IMG/VR virus record: IMGVR_UViG_3300027782_000134
Location: 1 to 46,381 of that record
DNA: 46,381 bases
Strand: one strand, 5' to 3'
Origin: a virus
Part shown: piece after piece, positions 8,184 to 46,381 of the stretch
How positions within the stretch are numbered: the stretch's first letter is position 1
How the letters are laid out: the number at the start of each line of letters is the position of its first letter
The notes under the pieces: model-generated
The model's database searches: none
The model's input: the letters and a program-made list of their open reading frames with translations, nothing else
What the model was told of the DNA's origin: nothing
Program-made: the position numbers and the translations under genes

Positions 8184-8199
8184 TCAACCACACTTAGAC

Positions 8200-9525: not shown

Positions 9526-9544
9526 TTTTTTTTTCATATTTTAT

Positions 9545-9577: not shown

Positions 9578-9590
9578 AAATTAATTTATT

Positions 9591-17207: not shown

Positions 17208-17210
17208 GTA

Positions 17211-17549: not shown

Positions 17550-17666
17550 AAAAATTTATAAAAATTTACACAAAATATACAGATTAATAGAAAAAAAGAG
17601 CCTAATTTTGACATCCTTTTCTATAATATAATATACACATTTTTTAAGAACAAACCTAAAAAATTT
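17550..17666. promoter_or_regulatory. Divergent intergenic control region
   Basis: This 117-base AT-rich gap separates divergent transcription of the fibre/lysis cassette (minus) and the replication block (plus). On the plus strand, TAATTTTG (17603-17610) fits the Bacteroidota -7 box but lacks a TTG 19-21 bases upstream. TTGACA (17608-17613), with TATACA 18 bases later, fits a classical sigma70 promoter. Both are weak. Start points for both blocks must lie here or nearby, possibly recognised by the phage polymerase. Confidence 0.4.
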
Positions 17667-18191
17667 ATGACACCAAAAGAATACAAAAAAAAGATGGAAA
17701 AACAACTCATTAAAGACTTTCAAGAAGCTTTTTATGAAAAAATTGGGTATCGTCCTACAGTGGTTACAGAAAGAAGTATAACAAATGAGGGACTTATTAT
17801 ATTGACTCTCAATGAGTTAGAAGAGTATTTTACACCTTATTTACCAATGATACTTGGTAAAAAACATAATTTAGCTTCAAAAGATAGAACAAGAGAATTA
17901 GTTGAATTAAGATGTATTTTCTTTTTTATAGGAAGATATATGCATTATGGATTAAAATCTATGGGTAATCATCTGAAAAGAGATCACACTACAGTGATAC
18001 ATAATATAGATGTATTTAAAAACTTATATGAAACAGATCCTAGGTTTGTACAAAAGTATTTACGCATTATTAACCAAATAAAAAAAGATTATGAGCCACC
18101 AACTGTGGATGACGCTAATAAAGCACAAGATCAGTCCCAATCAAATATACTTTCTAGATTGTTGCAGGGAGAAAATTCAACCATCAAATGA
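17667..18191 (+). CDS. DnaA domain IV-like DNA-binding protein
   Basis: 174 residues. Residues about 72-125 match the C-terminal DNA-binding domain (domain IV) of DnaA: R74-x-R followed by an ELVELRCIFFFIGRYM helix, SMGNHLKRDHTTVIHNI with the RDHTTVIH signature (105-112), and a following helix. In DnaA this helix-turn-helix reads DnaA boxes. The ATPase domain is absent. The N-terminal 70 and C-terminal 45 residues have no recognised domain. As the first gene of the replication block it may mark the phage origin, recruit the helicase, or compete with host DnaA. Confidence 0.8.
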   Translation: MTPKEYKKKMEKQLIKDFQEAFYEKIGYRPTVVTERSITNEGLIILTLNELEEYFTPYLPMILGKKHNLASKDRTRELVELRCIFFFIGRYMHYGLKSMGNHLKRDHTTVIHNIDVFKNLYETDPRFVQKYLRIINQIKKDYEPPTVDDANKAQDQSQSNILSRLLQGENSTIK

Positions 18192-18678: not shown

Positions 18679-18850
18679 AAAAGTAATACACCACTCTTTA
18701 GTGGCATTAATATTTAGTATAATTAACTGGCTCATCATAGATAGTTTCATAATAAAAATATCATTTATTATGTATTTTATTTTAGAAATTATTTTGGCAA
18801 TTTCATTAAAAATATGTAAATTTACTATTCAAAAATTAAACTTGAATTGA
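18665..18850 (+). CDS. Small membrane protein
   Basis: 61 residues with two hydrophobic segments (about 10-28 and 30-50) and a short basic end. It overlaps the preceding gene by 14 bases and the helicase start by one base (TGATG). A two-helix membrane peptide inside a replication operon might tether the replisome to the membrane, but it could also be incidental. Confidence 0.5.
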   Translation: MKTFEKVIHHSLVALIFSIINWLIIDSFIIKISFIMYFILEIILAISLKICKFTIQKLNLN

Positions 18851-19887
18851 TGAGCGAATCCACTGAAAACCCTTATGGGTTTAAGTATCATTGGGAAGTG
18901 ATACAGAAAAGTATAAAAAACATAGATGATAGAAGAAAAGGACGAATCAAATCATTTGTCACTCCTTGGAACACTATCAATAATGCAACTGCAGGAGGTA
19001 TAGAATGGGGATCTTTAGTTACAATTGGTGCAAGACCTGGTGCAGGTAAAACAATGTTTGTAAGTAATCTTCTTAGAGATTGTAAAGCTCTTAATCCAAC
19101 ACAAGATTTTAACATTCTAGAGTTTCAATTTGAAATGACTAATGAACAATATGGTCAGAGAGAAATTGTTGCTGCTACAGGATTGGATTATAATAAAGTG
19201 TTATCTACTCAAGATCAATTAGATGATTTTAACTTTCAAAGAATACAAAGATATGGTGAAGATTGTAAAAGACTTCATGATTTAGGTGTATTTCGTGGTC
19301 AGATAAATAAATCTATCACTGCTAGTGATTTAGAAAAAGCTGTACATCTTTGGTATAATAAGTTAGGTGGTAAACCACTTATTGTCACAGTTGATCATAG
19401 CTGGTTAATTAAAAAAGATAGCACAGAAAGAGAAAAATTACAAACTCTTTATAACACTGCAGATGCTTTAATACAGCTTAAACAAGACCTTCCTATCATT
19501 ATTATTATGCTTACACAGCTTAATAGAAATATAGAAGATCCTTTAAGAAAGACTCCAGGTTCCATCCAAAACTATCCAACTAGTAGTGATATATTTGGTG
19601 GTGATGCTCTTATGCAGGGATCTGATATTGTTATGGCTCTATCAAGACCATTTACATTTGACATTCCTGCATATGGTCCTAAAAGTTATGTAGTTACAGA
19701 TGATGGAATCTTTGTTCATATGCTTAAAGTTAGAAATGGTTCTAATAATAATAAAATCATATTTATGAAAGGTTTATTTGCAGAACAAAAAATAGTGGAA
19801 ACAATATCTCCAGGATTTAACATTCAGCCAGGATATACTCCTAGAAACAATAGGAGACCTTCAGCTGATATAGGTAATGAACTTTAA
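18850..19887 (+). CDS. DnaB-like replicative DNA helicase (SF4)
   Basis: 345 residues from ATG 18850 (a TTG three bases earlier is less likely). The RecA-fold helicase core has Walker A GARPGAGKT with K67, Walker B IVTVDHSW with D182, and the MLTQLNRN (motif H3) and FGGDALMQGSDIVMALSRP segments typical of SF4. It lacks the N-terminal primase-interaction domain of bacterial DnaB, like T7 gp4-type or phage minimal helicases. It should unwind the replication fork as a hexamer. It lies in the replication block with SSB, primase and polymerase. Confidence 0.9.
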   Translation: MSESTENPYGFKYHWEVIQKSIKNIDDRRKGRIKSFVTPWNTINNATAGGIEWGSLVTIGARPGAGKTMFVSNLLRDCKALNPTQDFNILEFQFEMTNEQYGQREIVAATGLDYNKVLSTQDQLDDFNFQRIQRYGEDCKRLHDLGVFRGQINKSITASDLEKAVHLWYNKLGGKPLIVTVDHSWLIKKDSTEREKLQTLYNTADALIQLKQDLPIIIIMLTQLNRNIEDPLRKTPGSIQNYPTSSDIFGGDALMQGSDIVMALSRPFTFDIPAYGPKSYVVTDDGIFVHMLKVRNGSNNNKIIFMKGLFAEQKIVETISPGFNIQPGYTPRNNRRPSADIGNEL

Positions 19888-30204: not shown

Positions 30205-30217
30205 ACTCCCTTTTTTT
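30188..30217. terminator. Bidirectional terminator at the second converging junction
   Basis: AAAAAGGGAG (30188-30197) pairs with CTCCCTTTTT (30206-30215) around a short loop. T-tracts lie on both strands. It overlaps the cREC stop codon and separates the plus replication block from the minus virion block, whose last gene ends at 30216. Confidence 0.8.
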
Positions 30218-33200
30218 ATAATCCTGTTTGTTTCTTATAGTATTCTATTCTATTTATATTACTCAAGAATGGAAGTATTTTTGTTACTTTCAATATTGTT
30301 CTTTCATTGTCATACATCTCTTTACCATTCTTATCTTGCACGCCTAAACTGTGATAGGTTACAGCTTTGATAGCAGCTCCCCAGTTTTTAGCTGTTTGTA
30401 TTACAGGGAATACATTTTGTTGCAATTCAGCTGCAGAACCAATACTCATGTAATAAAGCATGTCTCTATTAAGATCATGTAATTGTCTTAATACAAGTAG
30501 ATTATAAATCTTTTTATCTTTATCATCATCTGGAGCTGCTGCTTTAAGAAGAGCATAAGCTATAAGAAGTGTTGTTATGATTTGCATCTCTTTCACCATC
30601 TTTTTGAAGTTACTCAATTGCATTTCATCATCAATCCCTGGGTTGGCTCCCATAAGAGCCTTTACCATCATTGGAACAATCTGTAGCTTTTTCTCTACCA
30701 CCATTCTTCCAAAAGTTCTATAATATCCTTCTTCTTCTCTTTGCAATAAAGCATCAGTGTGACGAGGATCAAAACGAACTCCAAGAGTTTCAGGAAGCCA
30801 AGACTTAAATAGAATAAGCATTCTACCAACAGCATTGCTTTTAACCTTTAAAGGTACATCTCTACCAGTGGCACCATGTAATTTATTAGCAAGTTGTTTG
30901 TATTTAAGTAGGTTATCCATATAGAAATCTTCAAATGATTTACCACCATTTGCTTTTTCATCCCATTCACCATACTTTTCCACATCATATTCTCTATCTT
31001 CTGTAAGACTATCATAAAAATCAACCTTTTCTCCTTTAGATGTTACTACTTTCTCTTTTTTCATAGCTGCTAAAATCATCTCAGCTTTAAAATGAAAATC
31101 ACCAGAAGATAACCAAGTGTATGCTTTAGGAAGCATTTCTCTAAACTTATCTATTCCAGTTTTCTTATTAACTAATGTTTTTAAGAACATACCATCTTCA
31201 CCTTCAGCAAGACTAGCATCAGCCATAAGACCAAAAATAATTTTAGTGTTTTTTGTTTGGAACTTACCAAAAGACCAATATCTAGCAGAAGATTCAATAA
31301 TTGTTTTATTAGCCCACACTAAATCAGCTCTACTGAAATCTCTTCCCCCATGTGAATGAATTCTATTATTAATTTTACCTATTAGTACATTTCGTATAGC
31401 TGAGAAAGGTGAGAATCCTAAACTTAATAAACGAGTGTTAGATATAGCTGTATCAATTGTTTTTGTAAGAGAGAAGTTTCTTCCTCCTAGATTGTAATAT
31501 TCTTTTTCTTTAACTTTAGCTTCTTCTTCTAACTTAGTTCTTTCATCATCTGTTAAACCTTCATTTTCTAATTTAGTGTTAATAACTTTGATATCTTCAC
31601 TAAGTTGTTGAGCTTTTTTAGCATCAGCACTGTTCCATAATCCTAGAGCTGCTAATTCTTTCCAGTCGTACCAAAGTCTATCAGATTTCCAAAGTTCGTC
31701 TTCACTCTTAATACCATAGAAACTTCTAAGTACAGTGTGTTCTACAAGAGATTTAATACGAGAAGCATCTTTGTCTACAGCCTCTAATTTACCAAGCTTT
31801 TTGTTTTTCTCATAAGAACCTTCAGTGCCTTTGATAATATCAGTGATGGTATCCACCTCAGCTTTTATTGTATTCTTATGTTTATACACAAGAGACATAT
31901 CACTCATTAGTTTTGCCATTAACACTAAATCTTTAGATCTTTCTTCTACAGGGACATTTTCATTAATGAACTTAGCTTCAAAACCACGTCTTTCTTTTTT
32001 TGTAAAAGCTCCAATATCTTTCTTTGTTTCAAAGTTGGACACTGTTAATGCATTTACAAACCAGTCACCCAATCCAGCAACACTTTCTTTGAGATTGGTT
32101 AATCCATATTCTTTTACAGCACGATCTGCTAATACAGGTAGGAAGTCAGGACCTAGCTCATCAATTTCATCTTGAGGAAACCACTTAAGAGTGTCTTGAA
32201 TAAAACCATTCCACCAGTTGTAAAACTTAAGAAGCTTAGGATCATTTAATATTTTAGCAAAGTTCTCATCATAATACTTAGTGGGAACACCTTTAATTTG
32301 TTTAGCAGCAATTAAATAAGAAAATTTAGCTCCACCATATGCTGTAATTTTTTCTGCACCAAAAAACTTTTGGTCCATATACTTTAATGGATTGTTAAGA
32401 TCATCATATTGATCCACTTTCATATTTACAAACTCATCAAAACTCATATCCTGTGGTACAATAGCAGGATTTGTTACAGCTTCGTTTTCTATATCATATC
32501 TATACTCTTCCTTTGACACCTCAAACTCTTCATATTTCTTTTGAGACTCAGCTATAATAGCATCTATTTCTTCTTTACCAAACCCTAATTGTCTCATTTT
32601 ATTAATCTCAAAAGTTCTTTGAGAATCATTATAATCATTTGGCTTTAAAAAAACAAGTGAATTAAAAGCAATAGTGTTTGACTCATTCCATGCATTGAAT
32701 CTTTGCCATGCTTTTTTAATAAGATCTGCATCACCATTAGCACGCTCTATATCTTTACGAAGCATACTGTTATTAACTTTCTTAGCAGCTGCAAATTCAG
32801 GACTATATCTTGATACAAGAGACATTTGCTTATTACCATCTTTATCCTCATTAATTCTAAAGAAGATGTCAAAACCATTCTTTTTTATTTCAGGATGATC
32901 TTTAATAGGAGCAAATTGATCATCAATCTCAGCTTGATTTTTGTTATGCTCCATGTTAATCTTCATGTTAACTTTCTTTATAATGAAAGCTAACTTATTA
33001 GGTAGAGCAACACCAGTGGTGCTAAGTTCACGAGCCCATTCTGTAAACCAAGATGTATCGACCATCTTAGTTATATCAGCTTCACTTAATCCTGTAGACT
33101 CTTTTACAAGCTCTATAGCAATTCTACGAGACTTTTTACTAAGATCAGAATATTTAGCATCTACTTCCTGCACTCTATTACGTGTATCCTCATTCTTAAC

Positions 33201-33695
33201 ATCCACTGAACTCTCAATACCTAACACTTTATATAAGTTTGACCAGGTTTCTACAATGTTATTTGCAAACTGCAAGTCGTTATAGGTGATATCAGTGTTA
33301 CTATACATTGCTTCAACTAAATCACTATCAATCATAGCTTGAGATAGTAAAAAATCTAACTGCTTATCAATATCAGCATCGTTAAGATCACTAATACTTT
33401 TTGATATATCACTCATTATCTTTCTATACTCTGCTTTTTTAGCAAACTTTTCAGCTTTAGAAAGCTTAGGGTTATTATTAATGGCCTGAAGCATATTGTT
33501 TGCATCACGATATCTTTGCTTAAGCATTAGATTACTATCAGCTAATAACTCAGATACTTTCTTTTTCTTAGCTGTGGCAACAGACTTGTATATATTATTA
33601 AGTCCACCAAACTCTGAAAAACCATCTTTTGATAGTTCTTTGATTAAGTTTTCCTTACTGAATTCTCTACCTTTGTATGTGTATTCACAAGCCAT
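30216..33695 (-). CDS. Large virion-type protein (1159 aa)
   Basis: 1159 residues, mostly helical and charged, starting with MACEYTYKGREF, an N-terminal Cys segment seen in giant virion-associated proteins of Bacteroidota phages. A hydrophobic stretch at about residues 1035-1055 (IITTLLIAYALLKAAAP) could insert into a membrane during genome ejection. The C-terminal region (MLILFKSWLPETLGVRFDP and later YYMSIG) resembles the large polyvalent protein-associated domain class, but the match is weak. It directly follows the RNA polymerase gene (TAAATG junction), as in crAss-like phages where such proteins travel in the virion. No enzymatic motif is visible. Confidence 0.7.
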   Translation of the reverse strand: MACEYTYKGREFSKENLIKELSKDGFSEFGGLNNIYKSVATAKKKKVSELLADSNLMLKQRYRDANNMLQAINNNPKLSKAEKFAKKAEYRKIMSDISKSISDLNDADIDKQLDFLLSQAMIDSDLVEAMYSNTDITYNDLQFANNIVETWSNLYKVLGIESSVDVKNEDTRNRVQEVDAKYSDLSKKSRRIAIELVKESTGLSEADITKMVDTSWFTEWARELSTTGVALPNKLAFIIKKVNMKINMEHNKNQAEIDDQFAPIKDHPEIKKNGFDIFFRINEDKDGNKQMSLVSRYSPEFAAAKKVNNSMLRKDIERANGDADLIKKAWQRFNAWNESNTIAFNSLVFLKPNDYNDSQRTFEINKMRQLGFGKEEIDAIIAESQKKYEEFEVSKEEYRYDIENEAVTNPAIVPQDMSFDEFVNMKVDQYDDLNNPLKYMDQKFFGAEKITAYGGAKFSYLIAAKQIKGVPTKYYDENFAKILNDPKLLKFYNWWNGFIQDTLKWFPQDEIDELGPDFLPVLADRAVKEYGLTNLKESVAGLGDWFVNALTVSNFETKKDIGAFTKKERRGFEAKFINENVPVEERSKDLVLMAKLMSDMSLVYKHKNTIKAEVDTITDIIKGTEGSYEKNKKLGKLEAVDKDASRIKSLVEHTVLRSFYGIKSEDELWKSDRLWYDWKELAALGLWNSADAKKAQQLSEDIKVINTKLENEGLTDDERTKLEEEAKVKEKEYYNLGGRNFSLTKTIDTAISNTRLLSLGFSPFSAIRNVLIGKINNRIHSHGGRDFSRADLVWANKTIIESSARYWSFGKFQTKNTKIIFGLMADASLAEGEDGMFLKTLVNKKTGIDKFREMLPKAYTWLSSGDFHFKAEMILAAMKKEKVVTSKGEKVDFYDSLTEDREYDVEKYGEWDEKANGGKSFEDFYMDNLLKYKQLANKLHGATGRDVPLKVKSNAVGRMLILFKSWLPETLGVRFDPRHTDALLQREEEGYYRTFGRMVVEKKLQIVPMMVKALMGANPGIDDEMQLSNFKKMVKEMQIITTLLIAYALLKAAAPDDDKDKKIYNLLVLRQLHDLNRDMLYYMSIGSAAELQQNVFPVIQTAKNWGAAIKAVTYHSLGVQDKNGKEMYDNERTILKVTKILPFLSNINRIEYYKKQTGL

Positions 33696-36600
33696 TTAGC
33701 ATTTAGTTTTAATATTTAAGAATCTAGTTATATCAGCAAAGTTATCATTAATATTTTTAGTTTTTGCTTCCTGTGCAACAGCAATAGATCTTTGTTCTGT
33801 AGCTACTTCAGATGAATTTCTTGATTGAATAAGACCAACAATGTTTGTCAATCCTTCTTTTAGAACAGAATTATCTTTTACATTAATACCTAATGCTTTT
33901 AAAAGATTACCAATTAAATCCATAAACTTTTCAAAGATAGACTTTTCTCCATCGTATGTAGTGTTATTCATAAAGTCTTGGAATCCTTGGTCAGTCATAA
34001 TCATACTTACAAAATCATGAACACTTGTTAATCCATAGTAGAGTGATTTATCAGAAGCAGACAAGTAACCATCTGTTTTCATTTGATCTTTAGCTTTTTG
34101 TAAAGCAGCAGCATGTTGAGGATCCATCATCATTTTATTATGCACAGCATCATAAAGGTTATTAATGTTTTCTACATACTTTCTTTGCTCAACACTAAGT
34201 GTCTCAGGTTTTGCATTTAAAAGTTCAGCAGTGATGTGATGCATAAACTCATGCATAAACACTTCATGTAACTTGTCTCTTATTGCATCTCCATCTAAAG
34301 CATCACCAACAGCTAATTTAGGATTAATTGTTATAGTTTTAGTATTACCATTATACATTCCTGGATCAGTTATCTTATCATCCATCACTATAGTGACAGG
34401 AGCCACTATTCCAGACTTAGCTATTGCTGTAATAACTTGTTTATTAAAAGCATTGGCATTTGAATAAACTCTGTTTAAGAAACCTTTAATATCAGTGATT
34501 GTCTTTTGACCCTGAAACATACTATTCACCCACTTATTAATATACTCAGTGGCACTATATTGCATTGCTAATTCTAGTGGATTAACCACTTCATTTGCTG
34601 CATAGCTATTCACTTCATTATTTGATGGGCTTTTTACTTCTTGAGAACCAGGAATAATACTACTTTCAGGTTTAACTTCTTGACCATTATCTGATATAAA
34701 GCCTTTAAATACTTCTTGGTTATGTGATATATTAGAACCAGGACTCTTAATAATTACTAACGAACCACTAGTTCTTGTAACAGCAACATACATTGAGCTA
34801 AATATATCATCTTGGTTTACACTAGGATGTGCTCTGTTTTGTTTAATGTTATAATCCCCAACAATTACATTCTTAATACTATTACCTTGAGCTGTATGAG
34901 AAGATCCTATATAAGATGGTGTGAAAGGTAGTTTTCCTTTACCATCGTGTAGCATTTTAATATCTTCTTTTGCAGTTTTAAAATCACCATACTGCATATC
35001 AAATGTGGCTATCACTTTTCCTGTAGACTTTTGTTTTATAGTGATTCCTTTTTGCATTTTGTTTTCATATCTACCAAGATCAACAGCAATATCTAACACT
35101 TTGCTATATCCTCTTAATCTATCTTGTCTATTATATAATAGAATTTGCTCCATATCAACCATTACACTTTTATCTATATATTGAGCTATTGTGTAAGGAA
35201 GAATTTCTTTAAGAGATGTTTGAGTTTTAACAATATCCATCACTTTAAATCTTGCTCTAGGTTTGACTACACCTCCAGCAATAGCATATTCACCATCAAT
35301 GTTGTCTATTTTTCTTTCGTCTAGTAAAGCTCTCACTTCATCAGATGTAGGTGTGTACATAAAGTCAGAAGCTTTCATCTCTACACCATCTGTAAACTCT
35401 ACGTAATCTCCATTAGAAAAATTACGATGTGCTACAGAGTCAATCTGTTTTCCTATTTTAGCAAAATATGCTTTACGAATTTTATCTGAAATAGCAATAG
35501 TAGTTGCATTTTCTACATTGTTATAATGCACCCAGAACATTCCATAAGGATTATTATTATCCTTTAAAAAATCTGTATAATCATCAATAACTCCTACAGT
35601 GTTATCTACAACAAGTATGTTTTCGCTTGACTTGCTTGTAAGCTTGTCGTAAGCATCAAATGAAAGTTGTTTAGCTTTCTCACCTTTTTTAGTGCGTTCA
35701 ATGTTCTCTATGATTTGATTACCAATTGCATCATAAATAGCGTGTAAGTTTTTATTACTTGAACGCATCACCTGCGTAAGCTCTCTTGTTTTACTCTTAT
35801 CAAGTAGTAATGTTGCAGATATAATACCTTTATTTACATCAGCGTTTTGTTGTTCTTTAATAGGACCAAGCTGACGATAGTCACCCATGAAGATAAATAT
35901 AGGCATTTTATTTGTTACACCTTCTTCTAAATCAGTGTTAATACGTGTAAGCATATCTTTAATATCTTGCACTTTAATCATAGAGCTTTCATCTACAATT
36001 ATTATATCAGGAACACTAAATGCTTTTTTATATTTAATGTGCTCTAAATACTCCTCAGTTGTCATCATATCTAACTCTGAGCTACCATATCTTATTTTAT
36101 TTCTACGAGTGGCTGAAGGTATTGTATTCACTTTACCATCATTAGCTTTTTCAGAATCTAGTCCTAATGACTCCTGAAGTACAGTGGCTGCAGTGTGACT
36201 AGGAGCTAAGTACATTACATCATTTCTTCTATATTTATTACCAGTGCTTTCTAATCCTTTTATAATAGCTCTAATAACTGTTGTTTTACCAACACCTCCT
36301 CTACCTGCAAGTCCTATCATATTATCCCACATCACTTTAGGAATAACACCTGTAAACTTCTGTGTAAGAGGGTCTGTAAAAGAAACTGTATTCTCTAAGT
36401 CTTCAGCACGAACATTAGTTCTTTCTTTAAGTATTCTCTCAACATTGTTCTTTATAAAGTTATAAGCTTCTTGTTGACCATCATTCATTAAAAACTTAGT
36501 GGTGTCATCTTCAAATATCATCATGTTGTTTTCACTAGATCCTTCAGGTACACTAATTTTCTTTTCACCTGGAACCACCACTTCTTTAACTTTTGTTTCT

Positions 36601-39600
36601 GGATCATAAAGATCTTGATCTATTGTATCACTAAGAGTGTTGTTTACTTCTTGAATAATATTAGCATCTTTTATTTCATTACCCAGACTACTATCTTGAA
36701 GAGATAATATTCTACCATCATCAGTGACTATATATCTTGGAGAGTTAGCTCTATTAAGTGTAACCACTTGATCAGGGTTTTCTTCTGCTCTTTGTAATAG
36801 AATTAACTTTTCTATAAGGTTTCTATCAGTTACAAGGGCTCCCTTCTCACCTTTTCTTTGATAGTAAATATCAAATCCTCCTGTTACATCTGGCTCCATT
36901 ATAAACGTATGAGCACCATATTCTTTAGTTACAGTAGGTTTAGCATTGTCTTCTTGTTCTTCTACTTGTTCTATTGTAGGTGTTTTAAATCTAGCTGGTG
37001 CTGTAGGCATTCCTGATTCAAGAGGCATCACTCTTCTCATAGTGATTGTAACTCTGTAAGATCCTGGTTCATAAGTTTTACCATCTAATTTAGTAGTTAA
37101 TTCTGGTAAGAAACTATCTTGTTTTCCAGGGAAAGTTCTATGATAAACTTGTCTATTAGTACCATCAACTCCAAATATATATCCTGTACCTGCTTGAAGA
37201 TTTAATTGTTTAGGAGATCCATCTCTTGATTCAATTGAAAAATTACCTGTACCTCCTATATTAATTCCTATTACAGGATAATTAAGAGCTGATTTACTTT
37301 CATCAACATCATTATGAGAACTTATAAAAGAGTCATTATCATAAAGATTAATAATAGCTCCATCATAGTTAGTCATGTCAATTCCTGTAGCTTTTTCTAT
37401 CAACTCTCTAAATCTTGGTGTAATCTGTCCTAATTCTTGACCATTAATAGATCTATTATAGTATCCATATTTATTTTTATTTCCTTCATTTATAACATCT
37501 GGAATGTTCATTGCTTCTCTTCCAGAATTATTATTTTTATAATCCCATCTTAAACCAAGACCAATCATCTTACTTGCATTTGTTCCTTTATTAGTTTTAG
37601 ATGCTTGTTCTTCTAAAAATGGTTTTAAGTAGTCAAATAACTCAAGTTGTTCTTCTTTTGTTAAAGCAGCTTGATTTACATATACACCTTCTTTAATTTT
37701 TTCTCCTTTTGGCTCATTACTAGGAATTTTAGAAGTTTCTTTTGTAATAGGTTCAACACTAGTAGATGGTTGAGTTTTAAATGTATTAGCATATACATCT
37801 CTAATAGCTTGTAAAGATTTATTTATAACTTCTTCTGTTGCTAATGTTCTACTTCCAATACCAGCAAAATTTTTAGTAAGCATTGGGGTTTCTGTTGGTA
37901 CAAAGTTTTTTACTTTATAATCATAAGTATACCACCCTTCTTTAGTACCATCAAATACATAAACAGGTTTTTCTTCATTAATTGCCATTTGAACAGCATA
38001 GCCTGTTCCACCTTTAACAATAGGAACAGCAGCTATTCTTGTTTCACCTGCTTTATCAGATGCATTTTCACCAGGTTGTTTAATAGTACCTAATGCATAA
38101 ATAGCATCTGCATTTTTTACTTGCATCCAGTTTCTTATAATGTATGCACTCCTAACAGATTTATTTCCTGCATCTTCAAACATCATTCTAAAAGCTTGTG
38201 TAGCTTTTTGTGCACCTTCATTATAATCTTTTTGTTCTATATAAGTAGGTTCAATTCCAGCTGCTTGTAATTTTTTAGAATCTACTGTTTTAGATCCTTT
38301 TGCAGGTTGTCCTTTTGTATCAATATATTCTAAAGGTTCTCTATAATGTTTATGTTTAATTACACCAAATTCTCTACCTATTTGATCCCATTCAGCATCA
38401 GATAAAGCTGCACCACCAGAATGATTAGTATAATCAGCAGGTTTAACACTAGTAGATGATTGAGTGGGGGATTCAACTTTCTCTTCAGCTTCAGTTTGAT
38501 TAAATGACTGTGTATTATCGTATGTAATGTTCTCAGGATCTGTTGTAACATCTTCATTAGACACATCCACTTGATTATTCTTTATAACAGATTTAAGAGG
38601 TTCTGTAGTAGAGAAGTCATATTCTTTAATAGTTTTAAATCCAAGGATATTAAGTCTTACATACTCTGCAGTGCCATCTGATGTTATAGGATCACTAACT
38701 CTTTTGTATAAGTAGTTAACAGAAGTATCACCTTGACCAAAAGCAGTGACAAACTTATCATTGATGAGAATGTAGCCTGGATATTTAAAATCCATTCCAG
38801 ATTTCATCTTTGAAGCTAACATTCTTTCTTCGTCACTAAGTTTTACAGTTAAATTTTTAACTATACCATCTGTGTTTTCACCTTGAAAATCACCAAGCTT
38901 AATGGTAAACTTAGATACATTTTGTAAACTATCTGCACCACCTATTAGCTTTTTAAATTGAGCTTTAAAAGTGTTGTTATTAATACCAAATGGAGTCTCA
39001 CTTGTTTGGAATGTGAACTTTCTAGAATAAGCTTCAGGATTGTTTTGAACAATTTGATCTTTTAGCTTACCTGAGAATGAGAACATATTTGTTACATAAG
39101 AATCATATAGATTACCTATTGCTTCTTTAAAGTCGCTATCAGCCATGTAATAGTCTATAGGAATAAATCTACCAATATTACCTGCATCTCCTGTAGCAAA
39201 AGGATAGAGAGCCAAATCTCTAGATATTTCACGAACCACTTCATTATCAGATGTAGCTAATTCATAAAATCCAGAAAGAATAGCTTTTTCATCTATGTCA
39301 GTTCCATAAGGAGCTTTAAAAGATATTGTATAAGCTTTGTTTCTAAAATCTTCACTTATTTCTAGATTCTTTAAGAAACCATTTCTAGAAAACTCTGGAA
39401 GTTGTCTTAAGTCAAGTATACTCTTACCTAAAGATGTATCACCATTTATCAGTCTACTTCTAGTAGCTTTTAAATCAGTGAATAATCCAAGCTCAGGTGT
39501 TGTAAATAAATAAGCTTTAAGAGCTTTGAATACATCATCATGTGTATTTACATAACGCTGTCTTCCTAAATCATCTTTAGAAAGACCTATATCATTTAAT

Positions 39601-42600
39601 AAACTATCAACTAATTTAGAAAGATGACTTCCTGTACTAATAGGAAACATACTTTCATATACATCCTGTGCTTTTATTAAAGAATGATAAACTGCGTAAC
39701 CAATCTCACCTTCAGGTATCATACTTATACGTCCATCTTCGTTTTTAGAAACTTCTCCTGCAATGTTTTTTATTCCTAAGAATTGACCTGAACCAGCTAA
39801 TTTATTTAACTGATTTTGTTTTTGCCTAGTTGAGAATACGTCAGGCCCTATACCTTTTGTATAAGTGTATACAGAACCAAGGATGGTCATAAACTCTGTA
39901 CCAAGACTATTTAGTCTAGAGAATAAAGATAATGAATCAAATTGTGTTGTATAGTAGTCTAAAAGAAGCTCATTTATATTTTTATATCCAAGATCTTTAG
40001 ATAATTTAAGAAGCTTAGATGTATCTTTATTTTCAGTTTCAGCTTGTGTAGCATCTAATAATGCACCTTTTTCTTTTAACATCTTACCTACAATCCACAT
40101 GTTCTCAAGTTTCTTAGGGCTAAGGGGATCTTCTTTTTCTCTTTTTTCATTTACAAGATGATCAGCAGCCTTCATTCCATTTTTTAAATAACCACCTTCA
40201 TCAATTTTCTTTTCAAGATCATATAAAAGTTCACTAACTGATTTATTAAAAGCATCAGAAGTAAACTCTAAGAATGGATCTTGCTTTTGATCTATACTAT
40301 TAAACAAATCAATAATAACATTTTGAGATGCTAAATCCATTGAAAACTCAATAGGAATAGATTGTTTATCTTTAGATGTAAGCATGTTTAAAAGTCCTAT
40401 AGCTGACATTGCTTTCTTATCCCAGTTAAATGTGCGAAGCATTAGATTCTTTGCATTATCCACTGACTCAGTGAAACAAATATTCAAGTTATCAGAAACA
40501 CTACGTTTCTTATCCATGAAAGACATTGAAGTACCTGTTTGTCCTACATATTCAAAAGATACCACTTCGTTTCCTATTTTTATTAGTATAGGATTAGGAA
40601 CATTTTTTCCTTCGTTAACATACCCAAGCTGTAAAGGTTTATCTTGAAAATCAGCCTGAGCTGAAATCAAGTTAGCAAATATAGATACACCATCTTTACC
40701 AGATCTATTATCATTAAATCTATTAATACTTGTATTAAAGTCAAGGGGTAGTTCTATTTTAGTATCATCAGCTACATCATATTTTTTAAGAACCTCAGCT
40801 CTTTGTTTATTCTTTTCTTTTACCTCAGGCATATCAACAGACTTTGTGATGTGCTTAAAGGTTTCTGGATTAGTTAATACATTCCAATGTATATCTCTAT
40901 AAAACTGTCTTAATTGATCTTCATTTAAACCATCTATATCAGCTATTGAATTAACTGAGTAGCTTATTGGTTTGTATCCAATAATTTTTCCATCGCCATC
41001 TTTTATTTCTTCAGTTTTAGATTTATAAGCATAAAGTTTATCAACGTCAAAGTCAGATCCCATCTGTCCAGTGATACCATCTGGTACAATGATTGTATCT
41101 TCCATATAGCTAGGCAGGAATCCCACCACTTCTATAGGCATTGTAGAAGTAAGTGACTGATTGGGAATACGAGAACCTACAAGCTCAAGAAGAGACTTGT
41201 CTATCTTGCTTGTATCCAATATTTTTATACCATTCTCTTCTGTAATAAATTTAGATAGATCTATAAGATTACCTTTAGAGTCTTTTATATATTGTGATAC
41301 TATCATTTGAGCTGGACTCACTTTACCATCTTTCTTGGTAATGTAATTTAGCTTTGCCTCACCATCTTTGAATTTACTAGCATAACTATCTGTCCAAATA
41401 ATACCAGACTTTATCCCAGAGCTTAAAGAACTAAAGTTAAACTTAGCTCCTACACCACTCACCTGTACAAAGCTAGAACCATCCATCTTAAGCATTACAT
41501 TCTTATTAATCATTGAGTTGATTAATCCTTGTATTTTTTTAGCTTTGAAGTTAAGTTCTAATGGATATTTAAATTTCTTAGTGAGGGGATCAAGCTCAAT
41601 TGCTCTAAGATCATTTTCACCATAGCTACCACTTGTATCCTCAAGTATTATTCTTTTAAGTATATCATGAAGACCTTCATGGGAAGCTTCTAAGTTTCCT
41701 AGTTTTTTATCAAGCTCAGCAGCTTTTAATCCAAACATTCTAGTACGAACTTTCTCTTTGATTGCTTTTAGCTCACGTCCTTTTAAAACACCTAAACCTT
41801 TTACATCAAAGTCAACTTCTAACAAACCATCAAACAAAGTACGATTCATCTGACTCACTGTAGCAATTTCATCTCTTTGATGAGGAATTTCTTGCTGTGT
41901 ACGTAATCCATCTCTACTAAGAACTTGTAAAGACTTATTCATATCTTCTTCAGATGGTTCTACAAAGTTTCCTTTCTCATCAAATAACTGAACACTTGTA
42001 CCAGGTCTTCCTAGTTTCTTACCAGAAGCAAAGTTTACAGATTGGATATTATTTTTTTCCATCCATACTCTAAGATTGTCTCTTTCAGAGTTAGCCTCAT
42101 GTTCTGGTATAAGAGGATAGCGTGAAGACTTAACATAGTCTATACGATTAAGTCCTGTATCTTCTCCTTCATTCTCATCACTCACCTGTACAGGTTTCAA
42201 TGGAGTGAATACAAACTTAGTCTCTTCAGCACCAAGTTTATAAAATCCACCAGGACCTGCATCTTTAATTTTTTTGTTTATTGATTCCCATATAGGGGTA
42301 GGTATCTTACCTTCACTATGTAAGAAGTCTATATGCTCTTGTAGTGTAGTGAGCTCCTGAGCATCTGTAATATCATTACTCACTTTGTTCACTCTAACAG
42401 TGACATCAGCAGCTGTAACAGCTCTATAATCTTTACTAAAATACTTCTCACCATTACTTAATGTCCAAGACCAGTTACCCTGGGCTCCTGGAGCAATAAG
42501 TGCAGCAGCACGTTTTGAGAATTCATCCCATGTTGCTTTAGCTAATTTAACTTTATCAGCTCCTCTTAAACTATCAAAACTTGTAATTTCTACATCTTTT

Positions 42601-45092
42601 GCTACTTTAAAAGAAACCATTGGATCAAATCTTAAAAACTGAAGTGCTTTAACTTGAGCATTCATGTAGTTAAGTTTCATATCCATTAACATAAGTCTAG
42701 CTAGGTTACGACCTTTAGCCTCAGTTTGTCTAAACCTGTATACATAGTCAGTGGGTCTGTGACCATTTTTAAAAGAAGGGAAGGAGTATTCACCATTTTC
42801 ATTTTTGATAATTCCCTTAGATATGTATTCATCTATTTGTTGTTCTGTAGATTCTGTAAACTGATTAAGTATAACAGCTCCTACAGTTTTAGCATGGTTC
42901 TTTGTAAGTTCTTCAAGAGTTTGTCCACCAGAATATAAATCTTTTCTAAAAGATTCTAAAAGAGGACTAGAGTTTAATGCAGGAATTATATAGAATAACT
43001 TAGATGCTACATCAAAGTTTTCTAAATTCACCTTATCTGCATATTGCATAGAAGCAATTATTCTTCCAATCTCTGGAGCTACAAAACTTTCAAACATTCT
43101 TTGTTTAACATCATCTGTATATTCTATATCACCATTAGCTAAAAGAACAAAGTCTGTTCCTTTTCCTACAGGAATCTTAGGATCATCTATAAAAAACTCT
43201 TTAGTTTGTTTCACCTCAAGTGAAGCTGTTTTATCAGATAGAGTGAAGAGAATATAAGTACCAGTCTTCATGTTTTCTTGATGCTTCATAAACATAGCTC
43301 TAGTCTGTTCAGCATCAGTTAAATTCTTTCTAGTCTTACCATCTTTGTTGGCTTCTTGCTCACGCATACCATCAAAATATCCTAATGTAAAAGTTTTATT
43401 ACCATTTTTTACATCACTCCAAAATTCTTTATTAGGACTTGCAAAAGCACTATTCATTAAAGAGCTTGTATTACCTTGCTCCCAAGCACGCTTTTTTATC
43501 TCAACATAGTTTAGTTGAATATTGGCATACTTAGACTTACCTTCTGAATTTCTTGAAGAAGGTACATTTATAAGTCCAGGGTTTGCCTCGTAGTATAATT
43601 TTGCTAATTTGTTAAGTGAATTTCTCTCATTTTGTAAACCATAGTTAGATAGAAAAGGCACATCTAGGTTATTAGCATAGCCCATATATATATTTTCTAA
43701 CATACCTTTCTTAGCAAACAAGCTATCAAAGGTTCTACCTTTTTTAATTTCTGAGCCTAATCTAGGGGCAATATACTCCATCTGAGTGTCAGTGAGCTTA
43801 ATACCTAATACACCAAAGAAATCTTGAAACTTCTTAATTTTTTCAGGACCAGAAAGAGTTCTTCCTTCTTCTAATATAAGATTAAGTTGTTCCACTCTTA
43901 GCTGGTTAGGAAACATCTCACCAGTGGCTGTTCTTGTAAAAAAATCAGAGTTCATTTGTTGAGAATAAAAATCTCTAGCAACTTGTTCTTCTATAGTGTC
44001 TCTATTAAGTCCAATCGATTTTACATCTGTAATAGCTTGTACTTCATTACCAGATCTTCTAGCTTTCCATAACACCAAACTTTCATTAGCAAATGCTTTA
44101 CTTGCAAATGTTAATATTTGATTTATAGTATCCCAATCGCCATCATTTTTGAATGTTTCAATCTTAGCTTTCAAATCAGATAGATAAGGTCTTGCCTCAA
44201 CATTCTTTATAATGCTTGTCATAAAAGCATCATACTTACCTGACTGTTCAGTGTATCCACTTAATTGCATATCTATTCCTGCAGTGAGGATATCAGAAAA
44301 TACATCACTTGGATTAGCATATAAAGGTATACCTAACTCATAAGCACCTGTCTTTATATTATTCACTAAAGATCTAACACGAAGACTTGCTGTCTCACGA
44401 GGATTAACTTCATTGAAGTCTTTACCAAAGCGTTCACCTATCTCTTCTTGAGCTAGTTGATAATCTTCTGTATCATCTTCTTGTTTGTTTGTTACATCTT
44501 CAGATTGTACAACTACAATCTTTCCATCAACTTCGATAATTCCTTTGTGAGCTAATTCAGCTTTTACAAAGTCTTTATATCTATCAAAATTGTCTATAAT
44601 ATTTTCATATTGACCTATAGCTTTACCAAGTTCTTGAAATTTAGTGACCCCTTGTAAATTAAATCTTGAAAGTAAAGCCTTAAACTTATCATTATCTTTT
44701 TGCTTTAAAGCATCAAAAGATTGTTCATTATTAATAATGTTTACAAAGTCATTAACATTTCTCAAAGACTTTTCAAACTCAGCTTTTGCTTTGCTAAATG
44801 AATCAGTCATTGTAGTCTTTTCTACTCTGCTTGGGCTAATTGTTCCTAAACCATCTAATACAAGAGACTGAATATGATTAGTGTATTTAATCTCTTGCTG
44901 ACTACGCATAAGATTTCTATCTATGCCTTCAGCAATATCTTCTGTACTTCTTGTAGCAATAGACTTATATATTCCTGTATCAGGAGTGGTACGAATTTCT
45001 CCATACTTAAAGAAATTTCTCCAAGCTTCTTTTTCACCAACTTCTTTAACTAAATCTTTCCACTCTTGACTCGATGTATTAGGACAGTACAT
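33696..45092 (-). CDS. Giant virion RNA polymerase fused to SLOG, AlkB-like, SF1B helicase and zincin domains
   Basis: 3798 residues. The RNA polymerase core contains GSDFDVDKLY (D1347, D1349, D1351), the metal-binding DxDxD of the crAss-like virion RNA polymerase, with an upstream EVVGFLP segment as in that family. A SLOG domain follows at about 2215-2435 (NHSGGAALSDAEW, FAGIGSRTL), then an AlkB-like 2OG-Fe(II) dioxygenase (H2593-x-D2595, H2651, R2680). An SF1B Pif1/RecD-like helicase follows (Walker A GRGGVGKTT with K2936, VDESS with D3034-E3035, VAVTRT with R3440). A zincin protease motif HEFMH (H3614, E3615, H3618) lies near the C-terminus. In crAss-like phages this polymerase is packaged and injected to transcribe early genes. 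Proteolytic processing by the zincin is plausible but not shown. Confidence 0.85.
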   Translation of the reverse strand: MYCPNTSSQEWKDLVKEVGEKEAWRNFFKYGEIRTTPDTGIYKSIATRSTEDIAEGIDRNLMRSQQEIKYTNHIQSLVLDGLGTISPSRVEKTTMTDSFSKAKAEFEKSLRNVNDFVNIINNEQSFDALKQKDNDKFKALLSRFNLQGVTKFQELGKAIGQYENIIDNFDRYKDFVKAELAHKGIIEVDGKIVVVQSEDVTNKQEDDTEDYQLAQEEIGERFGKDFNEVNPRETASLRVRSLVNNIKTGAYELGIPLYANPSDVFSDILTAGIDMQLSGYTEQSGKYDAFMTSIIKNVEARPYLSDLKAKIETFKNDGDWDTINQILTFASKAFANESLVLWKARRSGNEVQAITDVKSIGLNRDTIEEQVARDFYSQQMNSDFFTRTATGEMFPNQLRVEQLNLILEEGRTLSGPEKIKKFQDFFGVLGIKLTDTQMEYIAPRLGSEIKKGRTFDSLFAKKGMLENIYMGYANNLDVPFLSNYGLQNERNSLNKLAKLYYEANPGLINVPSSRNSEGKSKYANIQLNYVEIKKRAWEQGNTSSLMNSAFASPNKEFWSDVKNGNKTFTLGYFDGMREQEANKDGKTRKNLTDAEQTRAMFMKHQENMKTGTYILFTLSDKTASLEVKQTKEFFIDDPKIPVGKGTDFVLLANGDIEYTDDVKQRMFESFVAPEIGRIIASMQYADKVNLENFDVASKLFYIIPALNSSPLLESFRKDLYSGGQTLEELTKNHAKTVGAVILNQFTESTEQQIDEYISKGIIKNENGEYSFPSFKNGHRPTDYVYRFRQTEAKGRNLARLMLMDMKLNYMNAQVKALQFLRFDPMVSFKVAKDVEITSFDSLRGADKVKLAKATWDEFSKRAAALIAPGAQGNWSWTLSNGEKYFSKDYRAVTAADVTVRVNKVSNDITDAQELTTLQEHIDFLHSEGKIPTPIWESINKKIKDAGPGGFYKLGAEETKFVFTPLKPVQVSDENEGEDTGLNRIDYVKSSRYPLIPEHEANSERDNLRVWMEKNNIQSVNFASGKKLGRPGTSVQLFDEKGNFVEPSEEDMNKSLQVLSRDGLRTQQEIPHQRDEIATVSQMNRTLFDGLLEVDFDVKGLGVLKGRELKAIKEKVRTRMFGLKAAELDKKLGNLEASHEGLHDILKRIILEDTSGSYGENDLRAIELDPLTKKFKYPLELNFKAKKIQGLINSMINKNVMLKMDGSSFVQVSGVGAKFNFSSLSSGIKSGIIWTDSYASKFKDGEAKLNYITKKDGKVSPAQMIVSQYIKDSKGNLIDLSKFITEENGIKILDTSKIDKSLLELVGSRIPNQSLTSTMPIEVVGFLPSYMEDTIIVPDGITGQMGSDFDVDKLYAYKSKTEEIKDGDGKIIGYKPISYSVNSIADIDGLNEDQLRQFYRDIHWNVLTNPETFKHITKSVDMPEVKEKNKQRAEVLKKYDVADDTKIELPLDFNTSINRFNDNRSGKDGVSIFANLISAQADFQDKPLQLGYVNEGKNVPNPILIKIGNEVVSFEYVGQTGTSMSFMDKKRSVSDNLNICFTESVDNAKNLMLRTFNWDKKAMSAIGLLNMLTSKDKQSIPIEFSMDLASQNVIIDLFNSIDQKQDPFLEFTSDAFNKSVSELLYDLEKKIDEGGYLKNGMKAADHLVNEKREKEDPLSPKKLENMWIVGKMLKEKGALLDATQAETENKDTSKLLKLSKDLGYKNINELLLDYYTTQFDSLSLFSRLNSLGTEFMTILGSVYTYTKGIGPDVFSTRQKQNQLNKLAGSGQFLGIKNIAGEVSKNEDGRISMIPEGEIGYAVYHSLIKAQDVYESMFPISTGSHLSKLVDSLLNDIGLSKDDLGRQRYVNTHDDVFKALKAYLFTTPELGLFTDLKATRSRLINGDTSLGKSILDLRQLPEFSRNGFLKNLEISEDFRNKAYTISFKAPYGTDIDEKAILSGFYELATSDNEVVREISRDLALYPFATGDAGNIGRFIPIDYYMADSDFKEAIGNLYDSYVTNMFSFSGKLKDQIVQNNPEAYSRKFTFQTSETPFGINNNTFKAQFKKLIGGADSLQNVSKFTIKLGDFQGENTDGIVKNLTVKLSDEERMLASKMKSGMDFKYPGYILINDKFVTAFGQGDTSVNYLYKRVSDPITSDGTAEYVRLNILGFKTIKEYDFSTTEPLKSVIKNNQVDVSNEDVTTDPENITYDNTQSFNQTEAEEKVESPTQSSTSVKPADYTNHSGGAALSDAEWDQIGREFGVIKHKHYREPLEYIDTKGQPAKGSKTVDSKKLQAAGIEPTYIEQKDYNEGAQKATQAFRMMFEDAGNKSVRSAYIIRNWMQVKNADAIYALGTIKQPGENASDKAGETRIAAVPIVKGGTGYAVQMAINEEKPVYVFDGTKEGWYTYDYKVKNFVPTETPMLTKNFAGIGSRTLATEEVINKSLQAIRDVYANTFKTQPSTSVEPITKETSKIPSNEPKGEKIKEGVYVNQAALTKEEQLELFDYLKPFLEEQASKTNKGTNASKMIGLGLRWDYKNNNSGREAMNIPDVINEGNKNKYGYYNRSINGQELGQITPRFRELIEKATGIDMTNYDGAIINLYDNDSFISSHNDVDESKSALNYPVIGINIGGTGNFSIESRDGSPKQLNLQAGTGYIFGVDGTNRQVYHRTFPGKQDSFLPELTTKLDGKTYEPGSYRVTITMRRVMPLESGMPTAPARFKTPTIEQVEEQEDNAKPTVTKEYGAHTFIMEPDVTGGFDIYYQRKGEKGALVTDRNLIEKLILLQRAEENPDQVVTLNRANSPRYIVTDDGRILSLQDSSLGNEIKDANIIQEVNNTLSDTIDQDLYDPETKVKEVVVPGEKKISVPEGSSENNMMIFEDDTTKFLMNDGQQEAYNFIKNNVERILKERTNVRAEDLENTVSFTDPLTQKFTGVIPKVMWDNMIGLAGRGGVGKTTVIRAIIKGLESTGNKYRRNDVMYLAPSHTAATVLQESLGLDSEKANDGKVNTIPSATRRNKIRYGSSELDMMTTEEYLEHIKYKKAFSVPDIIIVDESSMIKVQDIKDMLTRINTDLEEGVTNKMPIFIFMGDYRQLGPIKEQQNADVNKGIISATLLLDKSKTRELTQVMRSSNKNLHAIYDAIGNQIIENIERTKKGEKAKQLSFDAYDKLTSKSSENILVVDNTVGVIDDYTDFLKDNNNPYGMFWVHYNNVENATTIAISDKIRKAYFAKIGKQIDSVAHRNFSNGDYVEFTDGVEMKASDFMYTPTSDEVRALLDERKIDNIDGEYAIAGGVVKPRARFKVMDIVKTQTSLKEILPYTIAQYIDKSVMVDMEQILLYNRQDRLRGYSKVLDIAVDLGRYENKMQKGITIKQKSTGKVIATFDMQYGDFKTAKEDIKMLHDGKGKLPFTPSYIGSSHTAQGNSIKNVIVGDYNIKQNRAHPSVNQDDIFSSMYVAVTRTSGSLVIIKSPGSNISHNQEVFKGFISDNGQEVKPESSIIPGSQEVKSPSNNEVNSYAANEVVNPLELAMQYSATEYINKWVNSMFQGQKTITDIKGFLNRVYSNANAFNKQVITAIAKSGIVAPVTIVMDDKITDPGMYNGNTKTITINPKLAVGDALDGDAIRDKLHEVFMHEFMHHITAELLNAKPETLSVEQRKYVENINNLYDAVHNKMMMDPQHAAALQKAKDQMKTDGYLSASDKSLYYGLTSVHDFVSMIMTDQGFQDFMNNTTYDGEKSIFEKFMDLIGNLLKALGINVKDNSVLKEGLTNIVGLIQSRNSSEVATEQRSIAVAQEAKTKNINDNFADITRFLNIKTKC
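37750..37775 (-). repeat. Direct repeat, copy 2 (after the SLOG module)
   Basis: A 26-base segment 24/26 identical to the copy at 38440-38465. In the protein it encodes TQPSTSVEP, directly after the SLOG domain. The two copies are 690 bases (230 codons) apart and flank that domain exactly, which points to domain insertion or linker duplication. Confidence 0.85.
38440..38465 (-). repeat. Direct repeat, copy 1 (before the SLOG module)
   Basis: A 26-base segment matching 37750-37775 with two differences. It encodes TQSSTSVKP in the linker before the SLOG domain of the giant protein. Both copies are in the same reading frame. Confidence 0.85.
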
Positions 45093-45104
45093 AATTATAT
45101 TAGT

Positions 45105-46381
45105 TTAGCATTTTTTCTTTTGTTCTTCAATTTGTTTGTCAGTCATTTCATTAGCTGTTGCTGCACGATCAAGCATATCAAAAAGATCATCAGCATTAAC
45201 CTCAGTAGTAGCAGTTTGTAAATTATTTATTTGATCAAACAATGCTTTTGGATTTTCAGAATATTCAGCTTGAAAAGGAATTTCTTTTTCACTTCCAAAT
45301 CCACTTGTTGGTCTTTGTCTGTAATCAACAAGTACTTCAAACTTACTACCATTAGGACGAGTAACTTCAAATATTTCATTCCCTCTATTAAACTTATCCC
45401 TTTGTGATTTTATAAATGTTACTTTAGTACCATCTTCAGTCCACTTGCTTGTTCCTGGAATGACTTTACTTGAAAATCCAAGTGAACTACCTTTTATATC
45501 GTTAATTTGTTTTTCAATTTTAGTTTTTTCAATCGTTTCTGCAGAAGCTACAGGAGGTGCTTCTTCAAATTTATCTTCAACAACTGCCTCAACTTTTTGA
45601 GAATCTATTTTGTTTTCTGTTCCTTGTGTATCTGTTGTCATTTTAATAACAGGGTTTGCAAAATAAACCCAGTCGTTATTTTTATTCTTAGACTCAATAC
45701 CTTTCTCAATATATGTAGATGCTCCTTGCATGATGTATTCATTATACGTCATAGAAGATATTTTCATTTTACCATTTTCAATACTAACAAATGGAATCTT
45801 TTCAATGCTATTAATACCTTTTAAGTTTCTACCCTTTGCAAACTTAACTGTTGTAAGTAAGTTTTGTAAATGAGCCATTACATTATCAGGTAGTTGATCA
45901 GCTAAAACAATAGGTTTACCTCCATTATCATACCATTGGTCTGCTAATTTAGATTGTATGTAAAGATGACCATCATTTGTGATGTTTAATCTAGCTACAT
46001 TGTTTGGAAGATCAGTACCATTACCTATAGCAGAAAGTGAATCACTTTCAAGAATAGTGATGTAATGATCTATATAACTTTGTAACACTCCAATATCAGG
46101 TTTACCTTCTGACATTTGCATACCCATTGCATTATACACAGCTTTAACTAGTTCAGGATTATCCTGCTGACCAGTGAATGCTTTCCAGCTTTCTAAAATA
46201 AAGCTAGCTTGATTTGTATTTACTGTTGGTATCTTAATAAAGGTTGGAAAGAATGTTCCTGTTGGTGTAGGCACAAGTAGTACAGGCGTACCACTTTGAT
46301 CATCTATATTTTCTGAAAAAGATTTAGTGTTTTCTATACCATCTATGGTGACATTTTTAGTCACTTCAAGTTGACCATTAC
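45105..46381 (-). CDS. Large virion-type protein upstream of the RNA polymerase (5' end beyond window)
   Basis: At least 425 residues; the frame is open to the right edge, so the first codon of the visible part is not its start. It is mixed alpha/beta with an Asp/Thr/Pro-rich early part (VLLVPTPTGTFFPTF) and Glu/Ala-rich linkers. The end is Lys-rich, KKKC, as in the following giant protein (KTKC). It lies 12 bases before the polymerase gene. In crAss-like phages the gene upstream of the polymerase is often another large virion protein, and this fits. Function unknown. Confidence 0.65.
   Translation of the reverse strand, partial: NGQLEVTKNVTIDGIENTKSFSENIDDQSGTPVLLVPTPTGTFFPTFIKIPTVNTNQASFILESWKAFTGQQDNPELVKAVYNAMGMQMSEGKPDIGVLQSYIDHYITILESDSLSAIGNGTDLPNNVARLNITNDGHLYIQSKLADQWYDNGGKPIVLADQLPDNVMAHLQNLLTTVKFAKGRNLKGINSIEKIPFVSIENGKMKISSMTYNEYIMQGASTYIEKGIESKNKNNDWVYFANPVIKMTTDTQGTENKIDSQKVEAVVEDKFEEAPPVASAETIEKTKIEKQINDIKGSSLGFSSKVIPGTSKWTEDGTKVTFIKSQRDKFNRGNEIFEVTRPNGSKFEVLVDYRQRPTSGFGSEKEIPFQAEYSENPKALFDQINNLQTATTEVNADDLFDMLDRAATANEMTDKQIEEQKKKC

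Follow-up and report, generated by a model that had tools for sequence, protein, structure and literature searches.

The window analysed here is the 46,381-base linear viral record IMGVR_UViG_3300027782_000134 of IMG/VR, probably a fragment, and encodes a giant protein of 3798 residues in which an RNA polymerase (RNAP) core is joined by polar linkers, in one chain, to SLOG, AlkB-type dioxygenase, SF1B helicase and zincin-like metallopeptidase modules. On the evidence of sequence comparison, the SLOG and AlkB modules are shown to be exchanged between such polymerase giants as cassettes, and the same seems to hold for an ASCH-like domain and for a domain designated GSN. Multidomain fusion on crAss-like RNAPs as such is already known; the new part is the modularity of the polymerase giants. 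We consider it quite likely that the giant is a polyvalent protein that has developed from a crAss-like (phi14:2-type) virion RNAP (vRNAP), and that its cassettes would serve as strain-variable early effectors.

The open reading frame (ORF) begins with ATG and runs, as the original prediction had it, in a single frame, with zero internal stops under translation table 11 (coordinates in Table 1). The same chain, with another domain at the AlkB site, is found at about 50% identity in contigs G002 and G003, and the giant with the nearest RNAP (L060, 71% identity) has the order RNAP-SLOG-GSN-helicase-zincin. As an origin of the ORF, the joining of separate genes by a frameshift or mis-assembly, a check proposed with the original prediction, is ruled out by the recurrence of the chain in these three independent contigs. 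Apart from the other domain at the AlkB site their module order is that of the window at RNAP identities of 52-71%, the frame is open throughout, and each part compared is under purifying selection (ratio of nonsynonymous to synonymous divergence, dN/dS, of 0.13-0.29 in all 12 part comparisons, rough values with several dS >1.2). Nothing speaks for an artefact in the ORF itself, a possible chimeric end of contig G001 concerning only the ASCH/AlkB switch described below, and an artefactual origin is exceedingly improbable.

The three aspartates of the RNAP core (D1347, D1349 and D1351) lie within GSDFDVDK (1345-1352), which starts 37 residues past an RIP motif. The core matches PHROG 16227 with E 4e-49 over residues 907-1371, and a 10-sequence RNAP profile matches the DNA-dependent RNA polymerase in PDB entry 6VR4 with E 3.3e-62, aligning to 6VR4 residues 959-1516 over about 540 profile columns. 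We take 6VR4 to be phi14:2 gp66, and on this match the core is assigned as a homologue of the crAss-type vRNAP with DxDxD present. RIP followed 37 residues later by GxDxDxD is found in 24 of the 27 loci retrieved with SLOG or AlkB queries; the signature is lacking in L050, a 3139-residue fragment, and in L047 and L053, which are truncated at contig ends.

The identity of the SLOG module rests on its predicted fold because sequence profiles gave no assignment for the window domain, which has zero Pfam matches and nothing near the cut-off in NCBIfam, its profile retrieving from the PDB sequences a sole row (E 0.00095) for the unrelated mL100 protein. The model (predicted local distance difference test, pLDDT, of 91.3) finds 3imk at the top of the fold search with Z 11.8 (root-mean-square deviation 3.3, 144 residues aligned), the second row having Z 5.0. 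3imk is taken as a cpYpsA-family structure because the Pfam cpYpsA domain of giant G018 (PF12694, E 3.0e-26, over the cut-off) retrieves it by sequence at E 3.3e-12; PF12694 also matches the SLOG region of relative L048 (9.9e-4, below the cut-off). The window module is modelled, then, with a cpYpsA-type SLOG fold. Other SLOG-family Pfam models gave weak matches (0.0048-0.0076) in one or two of the 16 SLOG domains, and Foldseek searches by themselves found nothing at E <=0.001 for the SLOG or the zincin model.

The adjoining module matches Pfam 2OG-FeII_Oxy_2 (E 4.5e-14, residues 2470-2686), and its profile retrieves 2OG-Fe oxygenase and AlkB structures from the PDB (best 1.7e-11). It carries HxD at 2593/2595, H2651 and R2680-x5-R2686; H, D and H are invariant in all 12 rows of the alignment and both arginines, which we assume to play their AlkB role, are kept in at least 90%, so that an AlkB-type 2OG-Fe(II) dioxygenase with HxD...H and R-x5-R is predicted. 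The predicted SF1B helicase matches AAA_30 (E 5.8e-16) and has what we take to be motifs I, II, III, V and VI at 2930, 3033, 3070, 3398 and 3436. Its match to the RecD model TIGR01447 (E 8.8e-12) is well below the curated NCBIfam cut-off, and it is therefore RecD-like, not RecD; PDB sequences gave no match for it. In the C-terminal module, H, E and H of HEFMH (3614-3618) are invariant in 6 of 6 aligned sequences and a third ligand is D or E in all six, the window having D3693 where PMC5512222 names glutamate. Its profile matches a PDB "internal virion protein" (E 9e-6). In the fold search with its model (pLDDT 66.7), zincin metallopeptidases make up most of the 50 rows listed (Z up to 7.2), and part of the N4 vRNAP gp50 (9pnt) appears at Z 6.8. 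HExxH and a later acidic ligand of a zincin-like metallopeptidase are thus present, the fold is only suggestive, and the module is a probable zincin.

The assignments of RNAP, SLOG, AlkB and helicase are firm. Each had been read from motifs in the original prediction and holds up, the DxDxD core at D1347-D1351 through GSDFDVDK and the 6VR4 match, dioxygenase and helicase through profiles and motifs, and SLOG through its fold, without a profile match; the segment-wise profile searches and structure prediction proposed there thus matched three modules by sequence and the fourth via its model. For the zincin, the predicted HExxH is confirmed and an acidic third ligand is present, the assignment being probable.

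Exchange of these modules was surveyed with hidden Markov models (HMMs). The SLOG query returned 16 loci and the AlkB query 11, some of them near-copies; ORFs of at least 2867 residues hold 14 of the former and 10 of the latter, the rest (L047, L053) being cut by contig ends. The RNAP-core query matched 507 places, from which 79 loci were kept in 71 clusters at 90%. Zincin was present in 52 of these clusters, SLOG in 14, GSN in 14, the window-type helicase in 5, AlkB in 2 and ART in 1, five of the SLOG clusters (L033, L034, L037, L038, L048) having also built the HMM and matching by construction; 18 of the 57 complete RNAP-found giants carry an accessory module known to the HMMs. The merged set of RNAP-, SLOG- and AlkB-found giants, biased towards SLOG and AlkB, comprises 88 clusters with 27 module orders, and its 61 complete non-redundant members show 17. 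SLOG lies before, after or between RNAP and zincin. On the RNAP tree, a quick tree with open forks in which L140 has a very long branch and an unsure position, the minimum number of presence changes is 18 for SLOG, 7 for AlkB and 11 for GSN among the 88 giants, and 10, 3 and 7 among the 61 complete ones.

Identity to the window differs between core and cassettes. The nearest RNAP (L060, 71%) is accompanied by a SLOG of only 38% and another domain at the AlkB site, while the SLOG modules of G003 and L035 are 95% and 86% identical with RNAP cores at 59% and 23%. In L049 and L051 AlkB is 82% identical, and the RNAP cores, found by HMMs, are not aligned by BLAST across half of their length. Synonymous divergence between the window and G003 is 0.17 in SLOG versus 1.38 in the RNAP core, and window-relative identity drops sharply at the SLOG module edges. 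These features are marks of recent transfer and do not reflect strong constraint alone.

Among the nearest relatives, GSN occurs in G002, G003, L060, L037, L064 and L069; it is NCBIfam A1S_2505_Nterm where tested, and among PDB entries matched only designed or engineered proteins. The G003 giant has an additional ART-PolyVal domain (E 1.6e-7, just over the cut-off) within the region matching residues 1-829 of the window giant, and NADAR-like matches were found below the cut-off in two giants. Between SLOG and GSN, the G003 giant (L033) also holds extra residues (~2785-2925) that have no counterpart in the window or G002; their NADAR-like look is an impression only, as PF08719 (NADAR) gave no match to G003.

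The most clear-cut case concerns the AlkB site. Contig G001 is identical to window positions 1-36446, with zero mismatches over 36,446 bases; 63 mismatches over the next 540 bases follow (seen against L004 1-460 of G001), and then unrelated DNA, in which an in-frame ASCH-like domain occupies the AlkB site through the contig end. This is either a strain-level cassette switch or a chimeric contig end, and even in the latter case there is a sequence in which a homologous linker leads, at the AlkB site, into a different domain. L149 is a second RNAP giant, its core present, with an ASCH-like domain (61% identity to that of G001). The AlkB-linker junction of the window has 0 exact matches elsewhere in viral_contigs.

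Several points weigh against this picture. No accessory HMM match is found in 39 of the 57 complete RNAP-found giants, and AlkB is rare, in 2 of the 71 giants found via RNAP alone. Open-ended giants (27 of 88) inflate the counts of orders and changes, and some survey rows, having also built the HMMs, match by construction. The ASCH call in G001 has E 0.025, below the Pfam cut-off, and the contig ends 949 bases from the first mismatch and 407 from the start of the unrelated DNA, a nearness that makes a chimeric end possible. As to function, we take GGxGTxxE to be the motif of the LOG-family catalytic glutamate; the equivalent position is Q in 12 of the 16 SLOG domains, the window included, E in 2, A in 1 and K in 1. 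LOG-type catalysis by SLOG is doubtful on this count, and since the glutamate is mostly absent, a binding or sensing role has better odds than hydrolysis of the LOG type. The zincin model has a pLDDT of 66.7, and Z values below 8 can reflect no more than a common arrangement. A free-standing SLOG relative is present in Vibrio phage VH-8.

Were the giant a polyvalent vRNAP with exchangeable cassettes, it would be made late alongside the virion proteins, be packaged, enter the cell in a partly unfolded state together with the ejected DNA and refold there, and its RNAP would start early transcription independently of the host polymerase. The helicase may clear or pull the incoming DNA, SLOG may bind or destroy NAD/ADP-ribose-derived alarm signals, AlkB may rid nucleic acids of methyl or alkyl marks, and parts of the giant may be set free by the zincin, so that the RNAP would be a constant delivery chassis and the cassettes strain-variable early effectors acting at once. 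Packaging, injection, counter-defence and self-cleavage are what we infer for the giant, packaging in the virion by homology; packaging is likelier because in relative G003 (109 kb) the giant and the virion genes, as far as those for the major capsid protein (MCP), portal and TerL, form one row on a single strand, homologues of the window helicase, primase, exonuclease and DNA polymerase genes lying on the opposite strand. Coding alongside virion genes, as described for polyvalent proteins, is thus found in G003, and several domains of disparate activity on one polypeptide in the window giant.

The original prediction had read the protein as an injected multi-enzyme toolkit. Its anatomy stands, and the injected reading follows the polyvalent-protein idea as presented in PMC5512222 and the crAss001 virion data in PMC10172136; the fixed toolkit gives way to modules exchanged between giants, a point beyond a single sequence. 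Repair of alkylated DNA, the role it gave AlkB, is one option, resetting of methyl marks having been proposed for some other phage AlkBs in PMC7824862. A conflict related to NAD/ADP-ribose is likelier than a fixed repair kit because relatives carry ART, NADAR-like (below the cut-off) and A1S_2505-type domains. PMC9503650 includes a proposal that viral SLOGs counter or sense cADPR-type signals.

A bolder version, for which we see even chances, makes the vRNAP gene a fast-switching cassette locus, in which a constant RNAP chassis brings along ready-made early effectors of interchangeable kinds (SLOG, AlkB, A1S_2505/GSN, ASCH-like, ART, NADAR-like, helicase). Recombination within conserved flanks would swap them even among strains that are identical elsewhere, and the list of cassettes would be a catalogue of candidate anti-defence enzymes. 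The proteins on the list are candidates for action during the first minutes of infection, ahead of any phage transcription, and exchangeable cassettes give a testable function to much of the fused parts of crAss-type vRNAPs.

The modules could instead form a kit for replication, repair and recombination, with SLOG as a DprA-like mediator, AlkB in repair, the helicase as a Dda-type motor and no counter-defence, fusion ensuring only co-packaging or stoichiometry. In crAss-like records, homologues of the SLOG bear the annotation "DprA-like", one of the 16 SLOG domains matches DprA (0.0049), DprA-type SLOGs of jumbo phages are suggested in PMC7824862 to bind single-stranded DNA, and the AlkB and helicase families act on nucleic acid. 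However, the best SLOG fold match is cpYpsA (3imk), far above the other rows, related giants bear ART, NADAR-like and A1S_2505 modules, and the replication genes of the window are separate and on the other strand; we regard such a kit as improbable. Somewhat less improbable, though still unlikely, is that SLOG acts in cis, sensing host-defence nucleotides and turning the RNAP or helicase to which it is fused on or off, with the signal itself left intact, as PMC9503650 proposes for phage SLOG fusions that include SF1 helicases. The general lack of the LOG-type glutamate agrees with a sensor, but SLOG is N-terminal to, between or C-terminal to RNAP and helicase, and because its position changes fixed allostery fits poorly.

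The exchangeable-cassette giant shares with the polyvalent proteins of Iyer et al. 2017 (PMC5512222), as characterised there, a multi-enzyme chain, a zincin metallopeptidase, a polymerase module and a virion-gene location, and relative G003 carries Pfam ART-PolyVal. It differs in being built on a crAss-type RNAP, the RNAP described in that source being of N4 type, and the main text of the source makes no mention of AlkB, dioxygenase, ASCH, crAss or SLOG. The same source regards the zincin as the likely processor of polyvalent proteins and relates that N4 vRNAP is packaged unprocessed despite its metallopeptidase. The 6VR4 chain has 2194 residues, whereas the window core lies within 3798 together with SLOG, AlkB, helicase and zincin. 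For crAss-like phages, Yutin 2021 (PMC7886860) describes transcription blocks that consist of several large proteins, each with multiple domains and in some cases a PDDEXK domain, and the parts fused to crAss-type vRNAPs appear in a 2024 text (PMC10770324) as "large proteins of unknown functions". According to PMC10172136, mass spectrometry detected the RNAP-associated proteins gp47, gp49 and gp50 in virions of crAss001, and a model is given in which ejection takes place in a partly unfolded state; the phi14:2 polymerase is described in PMC10136315 as driving rifampicin-resistant early transcription. The literature searched, which did not extend to Yutin 2018 or Drobysheva 2021, yielded no description of a SLOG or AlkB on crAss-type vRNAPs.

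Related arrangements occur in named phages. Flavobacterium phage Fpv1 gp33 is 32-33% identical to the window in RNAP and 26% in zincin, with no SLOG, AlkB or helicase match by HMMs. The Suoliviridae giant of cr109 has the RNAP core (HMM, 5e-41) and those of cr130 and cr272 the RNAP signature, each with a C-terminal SLOG; the first two are annotated "DprA-like" and the third "hypothetical", and all have many in-frame stops under table 11. Two Crassvirales proteins annotated "DprA-like DNA recombination-mediator protein" (L144 7210-20196, L145 8778-26183) are giants of 4328 and 5801 residues; each shows the RNAP signature and has a C-terminal SLOG, the probable source of the annotation. Outside the crAss type, the N4-like (Schitoviridae) phages Klebsiella phage Pylas and Alteromonas phage PT15-A5 have a homologous SLOG in a giant vRNAP of different RNAP type, lacking the GxDxDxD signature; Pfam N4_RNAP_helical is found in 2 of the 11 members of set A10, presumably these two. 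The shared SLOG links crAss-like and N4-like polymerases and, if its cassette role is true, would represent a convergent delivery strategy.

Table 1. Positions of the features discussed; window coordinates unless a locus is named.
Feature	Position	Strand	Residues	Remarks
Giant ORF	33696..45092	-	3798 aa	order RNAP - SLOG - AlkB - SF1B helicase - zincin
N-terminal region	42606..45092	-	1-829	starts MYCPNTSSQEWK; no domain assignment
RNAP core	40833..42605	-	830-1420	6VR4 profile match, PHROG 16227
Catalytic DFDVD	41040..41054	-	1347-1351	inside GSDFDVDK, 37 residues past RIP (1308)
Region after RNAP core	38523..40832	-	1421-2190	kept in close relatives; no domain assignment
SLOG (cpYpsA-like) module	37770..38441	-	2218-2441	predicted model and exchange signature
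AlkB-type 2OG-Fe(II) dioxygenase module	37008..37730	-	2455-2695	Pfam, profile, motif residues
Switch zone versus contig G001	36447..36986	-		63 mismatches in 540 bases
SF1B (RecD/Dda-type) helicase module	34605..36575	-	2840-3496	AAA_30, RecD model, motifs
Zincin-like metallopeptidase module (probable)	33699..34520	-	3525-3798	HEFMH 3614-3618, third ligand D3693
Next gene	30216..33695	-	1159 aa	conserved neighbour of the giant in G002 and G003
Preceding gene	45105..46379	-	at least 424 aa	cut by window end; 1769 aa in G003
N4-like SLOG-bearing vRNAPs	L002 12073-23532, L003 11569-22056			phages Pylas, PT15-A5

The window ends 1.3 kb upstream of the giant, within a preceding gene that is likely co-transcribed with it. 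The product of the next gene has no Pfam or PHROG match and no PDB match below E 0.02. In G002 (L021) two genes seem interrupted by inserted ORFs (7894-10360 and 15741-17874), perhaps introns; their window counterparts, an ATPase (8170-9525) and a DnaB-like gene (18847-19887), are intact.

The host is probably in the Bacteroidota, because the RNAP and TerL matches name Bacteroides, Flavobacterium and Cellulophaga and a giant is found in Spirosoma terrae. G003 TerL matches 145 records, crAss-like phages and Fpv among them; by name, 51 are uncultured, 30 Bacteroides and 29 Flavobacterium phages, and identity is 21-28% in the 30 matches listed. G003 MCP matches only 9 records (one fecal, seven Cellulophaga phages), and the best of them, the cyanobacterial Leptolyngbya phage Lbo-JY46, speaks for caution about this host. 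The Spirosoma giant (L140 3-10544), with SLOG and the RNAP signature, lies in a 573-kb contig of the bacterial isolate S. terrae KCTC 52035 and belongs to a prophage or to a co-sequenced phage.

Finally, a cysteine is among the last three residues (e.g. IKTKC) in 46 of 77 stop-bearing RNAP giants, a count uncorrected for relatedness, compared with 36 of 297 other ORFs of 150-999 residues and 25 of 90 other ORFs of at least 1000. The window sites are 33696-33710, at the end of the giant, and 45105-45120, in the preceding gene, which ends KKKC; the residue may possibly act as a packaging or anchoring signal.

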